From Chromobacterium paludis (lineage in GTDB: Bacteria; Pseudomonadota; Gammaproteobacteria; Burkholderiales; Chromobacteriaceae): a DNA stretch of 64,000 nt. Each line of letters begins with the position of its first letter. The stretch's first letter is position 1. Location of the stretch: NCBI RefSeq assembly GCF_008275125.1, contig NZ_CP043473.1, positions 3,658,001 to 3,722,000 of the forward strand. The letters run 5' to 3'. Below the pieces are notes generated by a model. That model worked only from the letters and a program-made list of their open reading frames with translations, searched no databases and was not told where the DNA came from. Shown here piece after piece: positions 6,475-17,748 of this stretch. The translations under genes were made by a program, and so were the position numbers.

Positions 6475-10188
<3,714 letters not shown>

Positions 10189-10243
10189 ATTTATTGATTT
10201 GCTTATTAATTTAATTAGCACTTATACATGAAGGGAGTTGAAA

Positions 10244-11353
10244 ATGGCTCTTGATGTTGAGATTGAGAAGTGGCGTGGTGAAATTAAAACCGATTCTTAT
10301 AGTATGTCTATTGGGGAGTTAATTAACTTATATCGAGATGGTGAGTTAAATATTAAGCCTAAATATCAGCGATTTTTTAGATGGTCAATAGAACAGAAGT
10401 CAAAATTTATTGAATCAATATTGCTAGGTATTCCTGTTCCATCCCTCTTTATGGCTCAGGATAAGGATGGGATATGGGAAGTCGTTGATGGATTACAGCG
10501 GCTATCGACAATTTTCCAGTTTGTTGGGATATTAAAATCTGAAAGTGGTGAGATTTTGCCCCAGCTATGTACAAAAGGTACCCGCTATTTGCCAAGTCTT
10601 GAGGGGAAGCGATGGGAAGTAGATGGTGATGATAATAATCAAGCATTTTCAACTTCTCAGCGCATAGATTTTAAAAGGGCGAAGTTAAATGTAAATATAA
10701 TTCAACGAGAAAGTCAGAGATTTACAAAATATGAACTCTTTCAGCGATTGAATACAGGTGGCTCCAGTGCAACCTTTCAAGAGGTTCTGAATTGTATGTT
10801 GATCGATACAAATGAAGAATTCTACGATTGGTTTGAATCTCTTGGTAAAGATGAAAATTTCATCGATTGCTGTAATTTATCTGACTCGAAAATTGAGGAA
10901 CAATATGATCTAGAACTGGTGTCAAGATTTATTGTTTTCTATGATAGAAAAGTTGATAATATCGGCTATTTTGGAAGTATTTCAGATTACTTGGCTGAAA
11001 ATATGCTTGCATTTGCAAGTGATCCACAATTTGATAAGGAAATGGTCGAAGAGAGATTTAGAAAAACCTTTAAAGCGCTGAGGGATCTTGTCGGTGAAAA
11101 CTGCTTTAGGCGTTATGATGCAGGCAAATCTAAATTCCTTGGTGGTTTTCTAATCTCAGCGTTTGAGGCAATCGCGTTGGGTGTGGCTTACCATATCGAT
11201 GAAATAAGTGAAAGCCCAAAGAGGAAAGCCGACCTACCTGTTAAAGTTAAGAAAATATGGGGTGAACGTGATTTCCAGAAGTATGTCGGTGTCGGCAGAA
11301 CGGCAGATTATAGAATAAATAACATTTTGACAGTTGCTAGGAATTTTTTCTAA
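10244..11353 (+). CDS. DUF262 (GmrS/ParB-like) protein
   Basis: A 369-residue DUF262 protein, the family that includes the GmrS half of the type IV restriction enzyme GmrSD and other phage-defence components. The N-terminal ParB/Srx-like fold shows the conserved PKYQR (residues 39-43, followed by FFRWS) and the DGLQRLSTI motif (82-90), the region used for nucleotide binding or hydrolysis in relatives. There is no visible HNH nuclease motif in the C-terminal half. The ATG at 10244 is chosen over an in-frame TTG at 10238 because AAGGGAG sits 6 nt before it. The gene is very AT-rich compared with its neighbours, indicating horizontal transfer, and it is 4 nt from the HEPN gene. Confidence 0.85.
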   Translation: MALDVEIEKWRGEIKTDSYSMSIGELINLYRDGELNIKPKYQRFFRWSIEQKSKFIESILLGIPVPSLFMAQDKDGIWEVVDGLQRLSTIFQFVGILKSESGEILPQLCTKGTRYLPSLEGKRWEVDGDDNNQAFSTSQRIDFKRAKLNVNIIQRESQRFTKYELFQRLNTGGSSATFQEVLNCMLIDTNEEFYDWFESLGKDENFIDCCNLSDSKIEEQYDLELVSRFIVFYDRKVDNIGYFGSISDYLAENMLAFASDPQFDKEMVEERFRKTFKALRDLVGENCFRRYDAGKSKFLGGFLISAFEAIALGVAYHIDEISESPKRKADLPVKVKKIWGERDFQKYVGVGRTADYRINNILTVARNFF

Positions 11354-11357
11354 TGCC

Positions 11358-11996
11358 ATGAAGATTAGAACAGATGAAGAGGTAATTGATAAAATCAGCC
11401 AAGAGTTAGCATGGAGACGGAGTGAGATTTTAACGCTTGAGGGAGTTGTAATGCGTGAGCGGAAGAATATTCATGCATTACGAGCAACGGCACCAATGTT
11501 GTATGCGCATTGGGAAGGGTTTGTTAAAAATAGCTGTACATATTATCTTTGCTTTATATCATGTTTGTCCTTGAGTCGAGGGCAGCTTAGTAATAATTTA
11601 CTTGGGCTGGTAATAAGAGAAAAAATTGAGATTTTTTCATCTAAGTCAACGAAAGCAGAGCTGTTTGAGGAGTTGGCAAAGAATTTTGTAGATTTTATAG
11701 ATGAAAAAGCTAAGTTGCCATATAAAGACATAATTGATACAGGATCAAACCTAAAGCCTGTTGTGTTGAGAAATATAATTTTTTTGCTTGGTTTGAAATA
11801 TGACTTCTTCGAGAGTAAAGAAAAAACAGTAATTAACCCTATTTTGGAAAAGAGAAATGGAATTGCCCATGGGCAGTGGGTAGAATTTGATTGGGAAGAT
11901 TTTCTTTTCTTTAGGAGTGAGATCATTAATTTAATGAGCCACTTGAAAGATTTGTTGGAAAATGCTGTTGTTCAAAAAAGCTATATTCGAGTATAG
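11358..11996 (+). CDS. HEPN-family protein, MAE_28990/MAE_18760-like
   Basis: A 212-residue, mostly helical protein with a HEPN signature: RNGIAHG at residues 166-172, giving Arg166 and His171 of the R-x4-6-H active site of HEPN ribonucleases, preceded by the helix LYAHWEGFVKNS (about 49-60) typical of the MAE_28990/MAE_18760 group. HEPN RNases usually act as toxins or abortive-infection effectors. The gene starts 4 nt after the DUF262 stop codon; the start at 11358 is the first sensible ATG, but its Shine-Dalgarno (AGGA at 11339) is about 15 nt away, so translation is probably coupled. AT-rich like its partner. RNase activity is inference. Confidence 0.8.
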   Translation: MKIRTDEEVIDKISQELAWRRSEILTLEGVVMRERKNIHALRATAPMLYAHWEGFVKNSCTYYLCFISCLSLSRGQLSNNLLGLVIREKIEIFSSKSTKAELFEELAKNFVDFIDEKAKLPYKDIIDTGSNLKPVVLRNIIFLLGLKYDFFESKEKTVINPILEKRNGIAHGQWVEFDWEDFLFFRSEIINLMSHLKDLLENAVVQKSYIRV

Positions 11997-12017
11997 ATTG
12001 CGCTCATTTTTTTAAAA

Positions 12018-12051
12018 AACAGTCCTATAAGTATAAGCTTGTGGGACTGTT
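12018..12051. terminator. Hairpin after the HEPN gene
   Basis: An 8-bp stem AACAGTCC / GGACTGTT (12018-12025 with 12044-12051). On the minus strand it is followed by a run of T (12014-12019 as A on the plus strand), so it resembles a terminator more in that direction. It lies at the right edge of the AT-rich island. Confidence 0.5.
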
Positions 12052-12067
12052 ATCATTCGTTCAGTGT

Positions 12068-12098
12068 AAACCGGCTTGCCGCGAGGCAAGCCGGTTTT
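12068..12098. terminator. Strong bidirectional terminator
   Basis: A perfect 13-bp stem AAACCGGCTTGCC / GGCAAGCCGGTTT with a GCGA loop and T run, between the DUF262-HEPN island and the convergent subtilase gene. Its GC content matches the core genome, so it may originally have ended the metH transcript, now 1.9 kb away, as well as the subtilase transcript. Confidence 0.85.
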
Positions 12099-12111
12099 CT
12101 ATTGCCCGCGC

Positions 12112-13551
12112 TCAGCGGTAGTTCTGCGCGGCGCGCACGGCGGCGGCGGCGTCGACCAGGCCGGCCGAGCAGCCGGTGCAATTGGCCGGGGCCTTGCGCG
12201 AGGTCTGGATCAGCAGATTGCGCACCGCTTTCCAGTCCAGGCTGGGGTTGATGGACAGCATCAGCGCCACCAGGCCGGACACGTGCGGTGCGGACATGGA
12301 GGTGCCCATCATCGCCTCGTAGGCGTTGTCGTCCTCCGGCGCGGTGGCGCCGCTGTTGACCGTGGAGTAGATGCCGGGGTCGCCCACGTTCAGGTCGCCG
12401 CCGGGCGCGGTGACGGCCACGGTGGCGCCGTAATTGGAATAGCTGGCGATGGCGCCGGCCTGGCCATTGGCCGCCACCGTGATCACGCCGTAGCAGCTGG
12501 CCGGCGAGGCGGAGCGCGCGTTGCGGTTGCTGTTGCCGGCCGAGACCACCACGATGCCGTTGCGCGCATGGATCTGCTGGATCACGCTGCGGTAGGACTG
12601 GGTGCAAGGCTGGCTGCCGCCCAAGGACATATTGATCACGCGCGCCGGCGAAGGGTTGATCGGGGCGCCGGGAATCGGCGCGCCCACTGCCCACAGCATG
12701 GCGTCGGTGATGTCGGCGTCAGTGCCGCCGCAGCGGCCCAGCACGCGCACCGGGAGGATCTTGGCGCGCGGGGCCACGCCGGTGATGCCGCCCTTGTCGC
12801 CGCCTGCAGCGGCGATGGTGCCGGCGACATGGGTGCCGTGCCAGCTGCTGCCGTCGGCCGCGGAGCCGGGGTAGCAATCATTGGCGTTTTTCCAGCTGCC
12901 CTGGTCCAGGGCATTGGCCTGGCGCGCCGTCTGGCCGTCCGGTCCCACCGGCAGGCGGGCGTCCTCCGGCTTGGAGACAAAGTTGTAGCCCGGCGCCAGC
13001 AGATTGGGCTTCAGGTCCTTGTGCGGACGATAGCCGGTGTCCAGCACCGCCACGGTGACGCCCAGGCCCTTGCTGGTGTTCCACGCATCCGGCAGATTCA
13101 TCGCGCCCGGTTCGGCGGCGTTGGACTTCATGTCCCATTGCTGCTGCTGATAGAGCGGGCTGGCGGGTTCGAAGTTGGCCTGCTTGATGTAGTTGGGCTC
13201 GGCGTATTCGACATTCGGGTCCTGCCGGATGCGGCGCGTCAGCTGCTTGGCCTCGGCCGGACTCAGCGCCTTGCGGGTATGGAACACATAGGCGCCAGTG
13301 CCCATCTGGCGCTCGAACTGCAAGGGCACGCCGGTCAGTTGCTGCAGTTGCAGCGTGCGTTGCCTGGCGTCGGCCGGTTGCGCGGACAGCACGGCGCCGC
13401 GCGGCAGGCTGGCCGCCTGCGCCGCCAGCTGGGCGGAGGAGACCTGGCGGTATTTGACGATGATGCCGGCCACGTCGCTGCCCGGCGCCGCCTGGGCAGC
13501 GGCGCTGGCGAGACCTGCCAGCAGCAGGGGCAGAAGATTGAGCTTTTTCAT
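12112..13551 (-). CDS. Secreted subtilisin-like (S8) serine protease
   Basis: A 479-residue exported protease. The start at 13551 gives a good signal peptide (KKLNLLPLLLAGLASAAAQA); a longer frame exists upstream but lacks this. A propeptide of the S8-pro type follows (about residues 25-120, ending RQDPNVEYAEPNY), then the catalytic domain with Asp in VAVLDTGYRPHKD, His in HGTHVAGTIAA, the oxyanion Asn in VVVSAGNSN, and Ser in GTSMSAPHVSG. Paired cysteines suggest disulfides suited to the periplasm or outside. It lies 26 bp after the RCC1-repeat lipoprotein gene on the same strand, so the two are likely one operon. Substrate unknown. Confidence 0.93.
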   Translation of the reverse strand: MKKLNLLPLLLAGLASAAAQAAPGSDVAGIIVKYRQVSSAQLAAQAASLPRGAVLSAQPADARQRTLQLQQLTGVPLQFERQMGTGAYVFHTRKALSPAEAKQLTRRIRQDPNVEYAEPNYIKQANFEPASPLYQQQQWDMKSNAAEPGAMNLPDAWNTSKGLGVTVAVLDTGYRPHKDLKPNLLAPGYNFVSKPEDARLPVGPDGQTARQANALDQGSWKNANDCYPGSAADGSSWHGTHVAGTIAAAGGDKGGITGVAPRAKILPVRVLGRCGGTDADITDAMLWAVGAPIPGAPINPSPARVINMSLGGSQPCTQSYRSVIQQIHARNGIVVVSAGNSNRNARSASPASCYGVITVAANGQAGAIASYSNYGATVAVTAPGGDLNVGDPGIYSTVNSGATAPEDDNAYEAMMGTSMSAPHVSGLVALMLSINPSLDWKAVRNLLIQTSRKAPANCTGCSAGLVDAAAAVRAAQNYR

Positions 13552-13577
13552 ATTTTTTCTTTCCGTAGGCGTTGCGC

Positions 13578-15251
13578 TTAGCTCTTCAGATAGGGGATGG
13601 TTTTCAGGCTGGCCGGCGGCGCGGCGTCGCCGGCGGACGGGCTGCCCCAACTGATGAATTGGCCATCCTTGGCGACGGCAAGGAAGCCGCCCAGCGCGGT
13701 GCTGTAAATGGCGCGGATGTTTTTCAGCTTGCCTTGCACGGCGCTGCTGTCGCCGCCGTGCATGGGCGCGCCCCAGGTGACGACGGAGCCATCTTTTTTC
13801 AGTGCGGCAAAGGCGTAGTCGTTGGCGTACAGCGCCACGACATTGTTCAGCTGCGGCTGCACGGCGCCGCTGTCGCCGCCGCGCGTTTCATCGCCCCAGG
13901 TGACCACGCTGCCGTCTTTCTTCAGCGCGGCGAAGGCCAGCTCAGTGCTGGCGATGTCCACCACATTGTTCAGCTGCGACTGCGCGGCGCTTGGGTCGTT
14001 GCGCAGCTTGTCGCCCCAGGTCACCACGCTGCCGTCCTGCTTGAGGGCGGCAAAGGCGGCCTTGCTGGCGAATACCTTGGCCACATTGCTGAGGCTGGCT
14101 TCCAGCAAGGTCAGGTTGGCGCCCTTGTCGAACTGCGGGCTGCCGATGGTGGAGACGAGGCCGTTCTTGCCCAGCACGGCCAGCACCGCGCCATTGCTGA
14201 CCAGGTTCAGCGCGTTTTGCGGCGCGGCTTCCTGGCCATTGAAGAAGTCCTCGGTATCCCAATTGATGCCCCAGCTGACCACGCTGCCGTCTTGCTTCAA
14301 GGCGGCGAACTGGTAATCGGTGGCGTAGAGCTTGACCACATCTTTCAGTTTAGCCGCGACGGGAGCGGTATCGCCGCCGCTTTCCGGGTCGCCCCAGGCG
14401 ACGACGGTGCCGTCTTTCTTCAGCGCGGCGGCGGCGGCCAGGTTATAGCTGACGTCGCGGATGTCGCGCAGTCCAGCCAGCGCGTCCGCCGACGGGAAGG
14501 ATTGCGCGGCGGTTTTCCAGGCGCCCAGGCCGCCGAAGGTTTTTTGCGTCAGGCCCCAGGTGGCGGCGCTGCCGTCTTCATTCAGCGCGACGAAGCTGCG
14601 CTGGGTGGGCCATAGCTTGACCACCTTGCCGAAGGCGCCGGCGGCGGTCATGAAGCGGTTGGTGGTCACGCCCTGTACCGAGACGAAGGGCGATTTGGCC
14701 CAGACGCTGCCCCAGGACACCACTTTGCCGTCGGCTTGCAGCGCCGCCAGCGCGCGCTCGTTGCCCACCACCTGCACCACGTTCTTGGGCTGCTGCTCCG
14801 GTTTGAGCGACGACAGATCGCCGCCCAGCAGCTTATCGCCCCATACCGCCAGCGTTCGGTCTGGCTGGATCACGGCAAACACGCCGGGGGTGGTGAACAC
14901 GCTTTGCGCGGCCAGCGTCAGCGTGGCGCTGGCATTGCCGCAGCTGGCGGTCACTTGCAGCGGATGGTCGGGCGCGGGGTCGTCCACGCTGGCGCCGCTG
15001 GCCGTCAGCTTGGCGTCGTCGGCAGCGCTCCAGTTGATTTTGGCGCCGCCTACGCAGCCTTCGCTGCTGGCGCTCAATCGGGCGCCGCGCGCGCCGTATA
15101 CGTCCAGCGTCAGCTTGGCTTGCTCTTGCAGATTGCTGGTGCTGCGGCCGCCTTGCTCATCGCTGCCGCCTCCGCAGCCCGCCAGCGTGCCTATCATCGC
15201 CATGCTGATGCTGAGCGTGCTGAGACGCCACGTTGTTGTTGCCCTGGGCAT
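13578..15251 (-). CDS. RCC1-like repeat lipoprotein
   Basis: A 557-residue predicted lipoprotein. The start at 15251 is supported by AAGGAG 5 nt upstream and gives a signal sequence ending in the lipobox TLAG-C followed by GGGS. After a Ser/Ala-rich N-terminal domain with a Cys pair (EGCVGG, ASCGNA), repeats of roughly 50 residues run to the end, each with the core FAALKxDGSVVTWGD followed by GGDSxAVQxxLxNV; they resemble RCC1/beta-propeller blades. Surface beta-propellers bind protein or glycan partners. It is first in an operon with a subtilase, so it may be a partner, substrate or inhibitor; that is inference. Confidence 0.8.
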   Translation of the reverse strand: MPRATTTWRLSTLSISMAMIGTLAGCGGGSDEQGGRSTSNLQEQAKLTLDVYGARGARLSASSEGCVGGAKINWSAADDAKLTASGASVDDPAPDHPLQVTASCGNASATLTLAAQSVFTTPGVFAVIQPDRTLAVWGDKLLGGDLSSLKPEQQPKNVVQVVGNERALAALQADGKVVSWGSVWAKSPFVSVQGVTTNRFMTAAGAFGKVVKLWPTQRSFVALNEDGSAATWGLTQKTFGGLGAWKTAAQSFPSADALAGLRDIRDVSYNLAAAAALKKDGTVVAWGDPESGGDTAPVAAKLKDVVKLYATDYQFAALKQDGSVVSWGINWDTEDFFNGQEAAPQNALNLVSNGAVLAVLGKNGLVSTIGSPQFDKGANLTLLEASLSNVAKVFASKAAFAALKQDGSVVTWGDKLRNDPSAAQSQLNNVVDIASTELAFAALKKDGSVVTWGDETRGGDSGAVQPQLNNVVALYANDYAFAALKKDGSVVTWGAPMHGGDSSAVQGKLKNIRAIYSTALGGFLAVAKDGQFISWGSPSAGDAAPPASLKTIPYLKS

Positions 15252-15577
15252 GTAATCTCCTTTGCATCCGGTCACGGATATTTTTACGTGCATGTTGTTT
15301 GTTAATTTTCATGAAATGCACGAAGAAATATTAATGACAAAGGTATTTTTTGCAAATGGGGATGGTGGACGCCGCCCGACGGACGCGCCCGCTCCGGCCG
15401 AATGGGAAACGGGACGCGACATTGAAAAATAAGTAGAAATAGCTAGGCGCGGGCAGGAAGAAGGAGCGACTGGGCTGGGCGCGGCCATCAGCCATAAGTC
15501 ATATTTTGTGTCATTTTTGAGACATGAAACCTGACCCAGGCAAGCTCCTGGCGGTTAGGGGCGCGCAGGCTGCCGGC
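15252..15577. other. Intergenic region, no gene seen
   Basis: 326 bp between two leftward genes. The part next to the lipoprotein is relatively AT-rich and probably carries its promoter; no convincing hexamer pair, RNA or conserved ORF was recognised. A short plus-strand frame starting at 15524 is the shadow of the next gene. Confidence 0.5.
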
Positions 15578-16834
15578 TCACCAGAGCAAGGGCAGCAGGC
15601 CCAGCGCCGCCAGCGCCAGCAAAAAGCCAAGGCTCTGCCGTCCGGCCGCGCGCGCGCCCAGCATGCAGGCGTAGACGCCCTTGGCCACGTTGTTGCCGGC
15701 CACGGCGATCAGGATGGCCGATCCGGCCACCGGCAGCGGCGTCAGCTGCGGCGTGGATTGGGTGATGCCCATGATGAAGGGGTCCACGTCGCTGACGCCC
15801 ATCACCGCCGCCAGCGTATAGACGCCGGCCGATCCCAGGTATTGCGCGGCCAGCCGGGTGGCCACCAGCATGGCGATGAACAGCAGGGCGAACAGGACGG
15901 CGGCGCCGATCTCCAGCGGGTTTTGCGGCCGGTAGTCGCTATGCTTGCCGGCTTCCGGCGGCGGGCCGCTGCGCGACCACAGCCAGCCGCCCAGCAGCGC
16001 CAGCGCCGCCAGCGCGCTGAAGGCCGGCCACAGCCGCAGCAGCAGCGCGAAGTTGAACAGGGCGAGGAAGGCCATCAAGCGCAGATACATCACGCCGGAA
16101 GCCATCAGGATGGCGCCTGAGAACAGCCGCGGCGTGGCGCCCTCGGCGGAGCGGCGCGCCATCACCACGGTGGTGACGGTGGAGGAGTAGGCGCCGCCGG
16201 CCAGCGCGGCCAGCAGCAGGCCGCCGCTGCCCTGGCGCAGCTTTTGCAGCAAGTAGCTGCCGTAGGACACGGCGCTGACCGCCACCACCACCAGCCAGGT
16301 CTTGAACGGATTGATCTGGAAGCGGCCGATGGTCTCGTCGGGCAGCAGCGGCAGGATCACCGCCGCCAGCAGCAGGAATTGGGTGAAGGTCAGGATATCG
16401 GCCGGGTCTATGCGTTGCGCCAGGCTTTCCAGCCGCGATTTGAACTCCAGCAGCAAGAGGCTGGCCACGGTCAGCGTGGTGGCCAGCCAGTACAGCTCGC
16501 GGCAGACCAGCACGCCGATCAGATAGGTGGCCAGTCCTGACATCTCGCTGGTGACGCCGGAATAGCCTGATGAACCCAGCTTGTGCCAATACGACATCAG
16601 CAAAAAGGCCGCCACCACGGCAAAGCCTAGCCCGACCAGCGCCCAATCGCCGCCGGACAGCGCCGCGGCGACGTAGCCGATCAGCCCGATCAACGGGTAG
16701 GTGCGCACGCCGCCGAAGACGTAATGTTCGCCGCCGGCCTTGCGCTCTTCGCGCTCCAGTCCGATCAAGAAGGCCAGGAACAGCACCAGGGTGATTTGCG
16801 TCGCCTCGGGCGGCAGCCAGTCCAGGTAGCGCAT
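15578..16834 (-). CDS. MgtC/SapB-type membrane protein with DUF4010 domain
   Basis: A 418-residue polytopic inner-membrane protein. The N-terminal third (LVLFLAFLIGLEREERK, GGVRTYPLIGLIGYVAA) is the MgtC/SapB family signature, followed by a C-terminal DUF4010 block with several helices and GGAYSSTVTTVVMARRS. About eleven hydrophobic segments are visible. MgtC proteins help adaptation to low magnesium and acid by interacting with ATP synthase or kinases; the function of DUF4010 fusions is not established. The start at 16834 (MRYLDWLPPEA) is chosen because the upstream extension is polar and not family-like; an upstream start cannot be excluded. Confidence 0.85.
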   Translation of the reverse strand: MRYLDWLPPEATQITLVLFLAFLIGLEREERKAGGEHYVFGGVRTYPLIGLIGYVAAALSGGDWALVGLGFAVVAAFLLMSYWHKLGSSGYSGVTSEMSGLATYLIGVLVCRELYWLATTLTVASLLLLEFKSRLESLAQRIDPADILTFTQFLLLAAVILPLLPDETIGRFQINPFKTWLVVVAVSAVSYGSYLLQKLRQGSGGLLLAALAGGAYSSTVTTVVMARRSAEGATPRLFSGAILMASGVMYLRLMAFLALFNFALLLRLWPAFSALAALALLGGWLWSRSGPPPEAGKHSDYRPQNPLEIGAAVLFALLFIAMLVATRLAAQYLGSAGVYTLAAVMGVSDVDPFIMGITQSTPQLTPLPVAGSAILIAVAGNNVAKGVYACMLGARAAGRQSLGFLLALAALGLLPLLW

Positions 16835-17061
16835 GGGCAGGATTTCCAGTTGGGAGCAGTATTCCGTGCACGATATCCCGATGGCGTGGCGCTGTACACT
16901 GGCGGCCTGCCGGCTCCTTGTCATACTCAATGGATTTTTGCTGTTGTGCCTGGTGCCGCAGCAGGGCGGACGGAGACGCGGGAGCGGGCTGGGATGGGGC
17001 GAGGCAGAAGGGGGCGAAATGCGCGGAGCAGCCGTTTGCGGCGGGGACAGGCCACCGCCGC

Positions 17062-17081: not shown

Positions 17082-17243
17082 TTATTCCGTCGGCAGGTAG
17101 CCGGCCGGATGGGTCACCGACACGATGCCGCCGGAAACTTGCTCCACTTCCGCTTGTTCCAGGCGAACCATGGCAGCCAGTTCCACGCTGGTTTCCAGTT
17201 GGGTTTCGAAGTCAGCGGCTTGCAGGGTTTCGTTCTTCTTCAT
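17082..17243 (-). CDS. 53-residue double-glycine leader peptide
   Basis: A small peptide beginning MKKNETLQAADFETQLE and ending GYLPTE. The central stretch LEQAEVEQVSGG matches the double-glycine leader pattern (acidic helix, then hydrophobic-x-GG) cleaved by C39 peptidase-transporters or other maturation proteases, which would release the 14-residue core IVSVTHPAGYLPTE. The ATG at 17243 has AAAGG 7 nt upstream (AAAGGCAACAAAATG). It lies 52 bp downstream of the eight-cysteine protein gene on the same strand, suggesting a peptide natural-product or peptide-signal pair. No transporter or modifying enzyme is encoded next to it. Could also be a small regulatory protein; the product is not recognised. 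Confidence 0.65.
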   Translation of the reverse strand: MKKNETLQAADFETQLETSVELAAMVRLEQAEVEQVSGGIVSVTHPAGYLPTE

Positions 17244-17295
17244 TTTGTTGCCTTTCATAGACAGGTTGAGAGTGAGGCGGCTGGCGCCGCTCTTG

Positions 17296-17748
17296 TTATG
17301 ACTGGGAAGGCGCGGCGTCGCGGCGCGGCGGCACTCTCGCCTCGGCGATGCCCGACGGCGCCTGCAAATCCTGGGTGATGACGCGCGCGCAGCGCATGCA
17401 GGCGTCTTGGCCATGCTGGTGCCACCACACGCAGTCTGGGCGGATGGCGCAGTAAGCCAGTTCCTCGCTGATGGGGGACACTTTGTCGATGATGCGGTTG
17501 ACCAGCGTGCATTGCTCGCTGGCGGCGTCGTGGTGGGCGCATTTGCCGCCGGCGCATGGCCCGGCGGTGCGGAACACTTCGCCGGGCGCGATGCCGTTCA
17601 GTTTGGCGGCGTCGATCTGCTCCACCGGCATGGCCTGCTTCAGATAAATGATGCGGCGATCGCCCGCGCTGCCGCCCAGCATGCCGAACACGCGCTGGCC
17701 GTTGGCGTGGAAGTCGGCGCTGGGACAGGCGGCGTGTTCTTTTTTCAT
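17296..17748 (-). CDS. Eight-cysteine protein, possible Fe-S binder, peptide-operon partner
   Basis: A 150-residue cytoplasmic protein with eight cysteines at positions 8, 65, 70, 80, 100, 106, 117 and 120, in the patterns GPCAGGKCAHH-x6-C, YCAIRPDCVWWHQ and ACMRCARVIT. The spacing, with C-x4-C, C-x5-C and C-x2-C pairs, looks like an iron-sulphur or zinc site. I recall similar small proteins being annotated loosely as nitrogen-fixation proteins near bacteriocin-type precursor genes, but I cannot verify that. The start at 17748 is supported by GGAG 8 nt upstream; an upstream in-frame Met at 17820 lacks this. It precedes the GG-leader peptide gene in an apparent operon. Function unknown. Confidence 0.75.
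   Translation of the reverse strand: MKKEHAACPSADFHANGQRVFGMLGGSAGDRRIIYLKQAMPVEQIDAAKLNGIAPGEVFRTAGPCAGGKCAHHDAASEQCTLVNRIIDKVSPISEELAYCAIRPDCVWWHQHGQDACMRCARVITQDLQAPSGIAEARVPPRRDAAPSQS

Follow-up and report, generated by a model that had tools for sequence, protein, structure and literature searches.

A DUF262-HEPN gene pair inserted at the end of metH in Chromobacterium paludis, a candidate anti-phage module of the PD-T4-2 kind

Results

In this study, we analysed a 64,000-nucleotide (nt) stretch of Chromobacterium paludis DNA (contig NZ_CP043473.1, positions 3,658,001 to 3,722,000; hereafter the window), and in particular two linked genes at the end of metH that encode a DUF262 protein and a HEPN protein (Table 1). 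An earlier note on the window, made from its sequence alone, had described these genes as a tightly spaced pair, and the coordinates, motifs and Pfam matches all agree with that description; the 4-nt distance between them is found both in the list of open reading frames (ORFs) and in the sequence. The first protein matches Pfam family GmrSD_N (PF03235, 8.6e-25) and no further family at E <= 1, and the second matches HEPN_RiboL-PSP (PF18735, 8.4e-30) and HEPN_MAE_28990 (PF18737, 1e-29). No DUF1524/HNH (GmrD) domain was found in either protein at the same Pfam threshold. The two proteins matched PHROGs of unknown function (phrog_2598, 256 bits, and phrog_22325, 134 bits), an NCBIfam search assigned no family to the pair, and phmmer against PDB returned only DNA polymerase iota (E 0.77) and a decarboxylase (E 0.05). 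No second PF03235 gene was found in the same genome.

Table 1. Features at the metH locus of the window
Feature	Position	Strand	Details and basis
metH, flanking gene	6475..10188	+	ORF; ends Y-D-K-stop, congeners Y-D-A-stop
Inserted AT-rich block, ~1.89 kb, 35.7% GC	10182..12067		Both flanks aligned to the empty site of congener G012
AAGGGAG, Shine-Dalgarno-like	10231..10237	+	7 nt upstream of DUF262 ATG; sequence reading, putative
DUF262/GmrSD_N gene	10244..11353	+	369 amino acids; ATG 10244, stop ends 11353; Pfam and predicted fold
D82-G-L-Q-R86 (residues 82-86), predicted nucleoside triphosphate-binding motif	10487..10501	+	Conservation; role from PMC4619093, PMC13251355
HEPN gene, MAE_28990/RiboL-PSP type, predicted RNase	11358..11996	+	212 amino acids; ATG 11358, stop ends 11996; Pfam and model
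R166-N-G-I-A-H171 (R166-x4-H171), predicted RNase active-site motif	11853..11870	+	End of helix 149-170
Stem-loop AACAGTCC...GGACTGTT	12018..12051	+	3' of HEPN gene; sequence reading, putative
GC-rich terminator-like hairpin AAACCGGCTTGCC...	12068..12098		Also in G012, between metH and S8 peptidase gene

The pair occupies an insert of low guanine plus cytosine (GC) content (0.357 over 10182-12067, compared with 0.645 for metH and 0.663 over 12068-16930). The two genes are its sole content, which rules out a transposon or integrase within it. Both flanks align to an uninterrupted site in the nearest congener, G012, whose MetH is 94% identical in its C-terminal part and in which metH is followed by genes for an S8 peptidase, an RCC1-like protein and an MgtC/DUF4010 protein (92, 86 and 89% identical, respectively, to those of the window) with no DUF262 or HEPN gene between them. 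The earlier note had placed the start of the block directly after the metH stop codon. Homology to G012 is lost at ~10182, within the final metH codons, and the MetH C-terminal end that is Y-D-A-stop in 18 of 18 congeners is Y-D-K-stop in the window genome; the insert therefore replaced the final codon and stop of metH and was not placed just 3' of them. The other boundary stands as described, before a GC-rich hairpin, which is ancestral and outside the insert since the empty-site congener carries it too.

Detection of metH in all 19 genus genomes, the window's own included, allowed its downstream regions to be compared, as the earlier note had proposed. In the 18 congeners, the stretches compared 3' of metH (1.4 to ~9 kb, some of which end at contig ends) contained no match to the DUF262 or the HEPN protein. 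In addition, a whole-genome search with the HEPN protein matched one of 61 genomes of the family, the window's own, and none of the 60 others. The S8 and RCC1 genes adjoin metH only in G012 among the congeners, and thus the metH-MgtC interval is variable anyway. Among the matches listed, even the best homologues are only remotely related, with 54% identity to the DUF262 protein and 42% or less to the HEPN protein, and no donor was therefore identified. The gene pair is a recently inserted, horizontally acquired module, foreign to its GC-rich surroundings.

Two further observations were made at this site. A 7-bp inverted repeat seen by eye near the insert ends (ATGATAA at 10178-10184 and TTATCAT at 12050-12056) may be due to chance. 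Another congener, G024, has a different AT-rich insert (~0.39-0.44 GC over 2.5 kb; locus L214) directly 3' of metH, with ORFs of 455 and 187 amino acids, and insertions seem to recur in the genus on the 3' side of metH.

The association of the two families extends far beyond this genome. Among the best 80 of 287 HEPN loci identified in GTDB genomes, 79 have a same-strand DUF262 ORF that ends no more than 200 nt before the HEPN start, and 40 of the 80 show a gap of -4, the two genes overlapping in an ATGA-type arrangement. The 80th locus (L096, Fortiea) has a single open frame with both DUF262 and HEPN, which may reflect a frameshift and not a true fusion. The record titles of the loci span cyanobacteria, proteobacteria, desulfobacteria, Bacteroidota, actinobacteria, Alicyclobacillus, Planctomycetes, Acidobacteria, Verrucomicrobia, Chlorobi and Chloroflexi-like bacteria. 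As this set was seeded on HEPN, a reverse search seeded on DUF262 was added. It yielded 67 viral loci, 39 of them at >= 300 bits, with 31 distinct DUF262 sequences; at that threshold the next gene was of HEPN type in all 38 loci with downstream DNA, the 39th ending at a contig end. A scan of the phylum gave some DUF262 match, mostly distant, in 51 of 299 genomes, and loci from 30 of the 51 were taken for partner typing. The three loci at >= 300 bits (own included) all have a HEPN partner. Between 150 and 300 bits there were four HEPN and two NsnB-like partners, and below 150 bits ten NsnB, three other HEPN, one PD-T4-2_B and seven unlabelled partners. The DUF262-HEPN association is thus tight in the near family and looser with distance, and the pair is an old and widespread two-gene unit. 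Clustering of 558 neighbouring ORFs revealed no recurrent third gene, only lineage-specific clusters, and 12 of the 80 loci (74 of which have at least 1 kb downstream) have their next same-strand ORF no further than 100 nt from the end of the HEPN gene. A third conserved gene in the module was rejected on these grounds.

Conservation was assessed in 116 pairs, those among 147 loci and the window that passed filters on length and adjacency. The HEPN motif R-x4-H is kept in all 116 partners, 114 of them having R166 and H171 in the alignment and the other two, which are gapped there, reading RHSIAH and RNAIAH; in alignment A1, Y replaces the motif's histidine in one of 34 proteins. In the DUF262 motif, D82, G83 and R86 are kept in 114 of 116 and Q85 in 111, two rows being gapped. 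Pairwise distances in DUF262 and HEPN are strongly correlated (r 0.86 for 96 non-redundant pairs, compared with a maximum of 0.214 in 1000 permutations), which, without correction for organism phylogeny, is best read as showing co-inheritance and not contact.

The DUF262 protein has a predicted ParB/sulfiredoxin-type N-terminal domain and an all-helical C-terminal part. Its model has BrxU as its best Foldseek match (E 4.4e-4) and resembles the structures of BrxU, SspE, DndI and CTP-bound ParB. For the HEPN model, which has a predicted local distance difference test (pLDDT) score of 93.4, Foldseek gave no match at E <= 0.001. HEPN structures, including MntA-HepT, Csm6 and AbiV, head the list from VIA, which alone listed HEPN chains. 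The family match, the R-x4-6-H motif and the predicted helical HEPN fold are all features of the HEPN RNase superfamily.

The pair is also carried on mobile elements. HEPN relatives were found on nine plasmid records, with DUF262 directly upstream in all four plasmid regions opened, and on a Psychrobacter plasmid a BsuBI/PstI-type restriction-modification system adjoins the pair. Only one of 50,697 phage records matches the HEPN protein, that of Terrisporobacter phage TVCOM_ph1, in which DUF262 is followed by HEPN near a methyltransferase and an integrase. A survey of Salmonella prophages lists an MAE_28990-type protein as prophage cargo, the entry itself reporting no test of it. On a Leptospira noguchii plasmid (L258, 4965-6077) DUF262 is annotated in two pieces with an intact HEPN gene after it, so that a broken sensor may accompany a surviving HEPN gene there. 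In some T-even-like phages (Phi1, kvi, MIZ and others), an encoded protein matches residues 32-95 of the window DUF262 with 43-46% identity (e.g., EF437941.1, 116685-116885), which could be a phage-side decoy or a DUF262 enzyme of the phages' own.

Nine of the 80 genome loci (L029, L042-L046, L048, L056 and L057), from Nostocales-type cyanobacteria, have a pheS gene that ends 111-220 nt before the DUF262 gene at the offsets listed, and in six the HEPN gene has a recQ-like gene after it. Mean identities over 15 pairs from six loci are 94% for PheS, 80% for DUF262 and 79% for HEPN, and so the two proteins change faster than the neighbouring PheS. The pair beside pheS is a copy kept for long and possibly domesticated.

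Regarding expression, a promoter scan found nine sigma-70-like sites in total versus 4.8 expected, none of them a + strand site in the interval from metH to the DUF262 ATG. The stem-loop 3' of the HEPN gene, a possible transcription end of the insert as judged from its sequence, is not listed by the hairpin scan, whose loop-length range it exceeds. Elsewhere in the window, a short ORF (17082-17414, - strand) without a Pfam match has an end, ...EVEQVSGGIVSVTHPAGYLPTE, with a Gly-Gly leader-like motif, which we take to resemble those of peptide (RiPP/bacteriocin-type, i.e., ribosomally synthesised and post-translationally modified) precursors.

Discussion

Our analyses identify PD-T4-2 as the nearest characterised kin of the window pair. 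PD-T4-2 is composed of a DUF262 protein and a PF18735 HEPN (PMC10952713), and the system from E. coli ECOR65 protects against T4, its deletion raising T4 plaquing (Vassallo et al. 2022, PMC9519451). Like the window pair, it consists of two genes in the order DUF262 then HEPN. The locus L254 of E. coli MDR_56, a PD-T4-2 copy that may differ from the ECOR65 system, has the same 4-nt gap and is surrounded by P4-like satellite genes, with ssrA and an integrase adjoining it. The window DUF262 is related to PD-T4-2_A from end to end (109.2 bits over residues 22-367 in PADLOC) but lies outside that family, for which the true members that served as yardsticks score 527 (L224) and 538 bits (L254), and it is 25% identical to the L254 protein. 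Both HEPN proteins carry R-x4-H, but they have 212 residues in the window and 167 in PD-T4-2; the window HEPN matched no PADLOC family at E <= 1, PD-T4-2_B included (209 and 213 bits for L224 and L254, respectively), and was not similar to the L254 HEPN by BLASTP (E 0.68). An hhalign comparison with PD-T4-2_B gave a probability of 1.1%, with 30 columns spanning RN-x-x-AH common to both.

The relationships were examined further in a quick tree of DUF262 with Shimodaira-Hasegawa-like approximate likelihood ratio test (SH-aLRT) support, which has 111 rows, genome loci having been thinned to a third, near-copies removed, and rows below 75 bits, shorter than 300 residues or ending at contig ends left out. 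All 54 MAE_28990-type rows and eight other HEPN-partner rows fall on one side of a single branch (96). On the other side are three PD-T4-2 rows, which form their own clade, 24 NsnB-partner rows, 12 further HEPN-partner rows and ten unlabelled rows, and eight of nine tested unlabelled partners are PF18735 HEPNs. As HEPN partners occur on both sides of the branch, the tree does not establish the pairing as monophyletic. Partner type fits the tree with few changes, seven for five labels compared with a shuffled mean of 51.6. With its DUF262 in another clade and its HEPN outside the PD-T4-2_B family, the window pair is rejected as a true PD-T4-2; it is a distinct, little-studied subtype of the PD-T4-2 kind.

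Other known systems resemble the pair in part. The window DUF262 scores higher with the PADLOC model NsnA (204.5 bits) than with PD-T4-2_A (109.2 bits), but NsnA also gives 193-197 bits for the true PD-T4-2_A of L224 and L254 and the model thus does not discriminate. We take the NsnA and NsnB names to denote the components of Menshen. No NsnB-like gene stands beside the window pair, where the gene next to DUF262 is HEPN and the insert then ends, and Menshen was rejected; NsnB is an AAA_15/AAA_21/DUF3696 protein and the NsnB-paired DUF262 relatives are in the other part of the tree. MntA-HepT and AbiV share with the pair a HEPN effector next to a regulatory partner gene, as well as structural resemblance, but the partner is a nucleotidyltransferase (MntA) or other protein and not DUF262.

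The 2013 HEPN survey of Anantharaman et al. had placed MAE_28990 'in operon with a ParB nuclease and DNA methylase genes' and RiboL-PSP-HEPN in an 'operon with ParB', and gave R-x4-6-H as an RNase motif (PMC3710099). These are the same HEPN families as in the window, and the survey is computational, its pertinent sections describing no defence test of the pair. The earlier note had hoped for an undescribed system. In the strong sense this does not hold, since PD-T4-2 has the DUF262-HEPN architecture and the survey had noted ParB-type operons, and the pair is less novel than hoped because both the architecture and the defence role are known for PD-T4-2. "Little-studied" is an apt description of this subtype: no experimental study of it was found in the open-licence literature of PubMed Central, subscription papers and most preprints being outside the search. 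None of the patterns named in the earlier note as contrary to its proposal was encountered, that is, a block present in all relatives with normal codon use, loss of R166/H171 (R-x4-H is retained in every partner), or a lack of association beyond this genome.

By analogy with PD-T4-2, we consider it likely that the pair is a horizontally acquired two-gene anti-phage module which works in a similar way. A split into a sensor (DUF262) and an effector (HEPN) is plausible in light of the models, with DUF262 assigned the sensing part because effectors are exchanged across its family. In the mechanism that we infer, the DUF262 protein would bind, and probably hydrolyse, a nucleoside triphosphate (NTP) through DGLQR, and would form a complex with the HEPN protein that restrains it. 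This gating is proposed by analogy, as the DUF262 part of SspE gates its own nuclease. On sensing a sign of infection, which may be phage DNA, modified DNA or a change in the nucleotide pool, a change in the shape of the complex would free the HEPN protein, a dimer of which would then cut RNA through R166 and H171, with tRNA, rRNA or mRNA the most likely targets. Such cutting would halt translation and phage growth or kill the cell, probably as abortive infection.

Potentially, the same parts could instead form a toxin-antitoxin stability module, in which the DUF262 antitoxin and HEPN toxin would prevent loss of the insert, plasmid or prophage and any effect on phages would be secondary. This reading is close to the sensor/effector mechanism, differing mainly in purpose, and it accommodates the antitoxin-like first gene, the overlapping genes, the HEPN toxins of MntA-HepT fold and the replication genes that the pair adjoins on plasmids. 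We nevertheless regard it as unlikely, given that the DUF262 family is also wired to an NsnB-type AAA/ABC-type ATPase, as would be expected of a sensor more than of a dedicated antitoxin, that the NTP-binding site is conserved and that PD-T4-2 defends.

Modification-dependent restriction of the GmrSD type, in which DUF262 would both recognise modified DNA of phages and cut it, HEPN having an accessory role, is suggested by the Pfam name and the BrxU/SspE-like fold. GmrSD, BrxU, SspE and DndI share with the window protein a DUF262 (ParB/sulfiredoxin) domain with DGxQR; GmrS has the ParB/Srx fold (PMC4619093), and in SspE, whose DUF262 senses DNA modification, GTP hydrolysis dependent on DGQQR licenses the nuclease (PMC13251355). 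The window pair differs in having no DUF1524/HNH domain, with GmrSD_N the sole Pfam family of its DUF262 protein at E <= 1 and a separate HEPN protein as the nuclease candidate. A GmrSD restriction enzyme is rejected for that reason, and the broader reading is highly improbable, since a HEPN active site kept throughout would be needless in an idle accessory. Just as improbable is a host function in RNA processing or stress unrelated to phage, with the window copy a stray transfer, because long retention beside pheS in cyanobacterial genomes is outweighed by the patchy distribution, the plasmid and phage carriage and a pair that changes faster than its housekeeping neighbour.

Conclusions

Beyond the anti-phage module proposed for the window, we tentatively suggest, at somewhat less than even confidence, that the NsnA, PD-T4-2_A and window-type DUF262 proteins form a single family of phage sensors, interchangeable among several kinds of killing device. 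With the same reserve, those devices would be MAE_28990 HEPN RNases (the tightest clade), NsnB-type ATPases, and further HEPNs of RiboL-PSP type, PD-T4-2_B among them. This suggestion is based on partner type tracking the DUF262 tree in few changes and on the unlabelled partners being PF18735 HEPNs in all but one case tested. If it is true, one conserved trigger and one NTP switch would drive RNA cleavage in some systems and ATPase/nuclease effectors in others, with HEPN the more frequent partner, and the pair beside pheS would be a resident guard that some cyanobacteria have long retained.

The finding has consequences for how such systems are counted and studied. As PADLOC-DB 2.0.0 has no fitting HEPN model (the sole hit, in one viral relative, is weak, E 0.0087), defence surveys that rely on this database may miss the pair, widespread though it is. 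In addition, the pair provides a minimal test case for how an NTP switch of ParB/sulfiredoxin fold, which in SspE and BrxU licenses DNA nucleases, could instead govern an RNase, and for whether a trigger is shared by PD-T4-2, Menshen-type sensors and the clade to which the window pair belongs.
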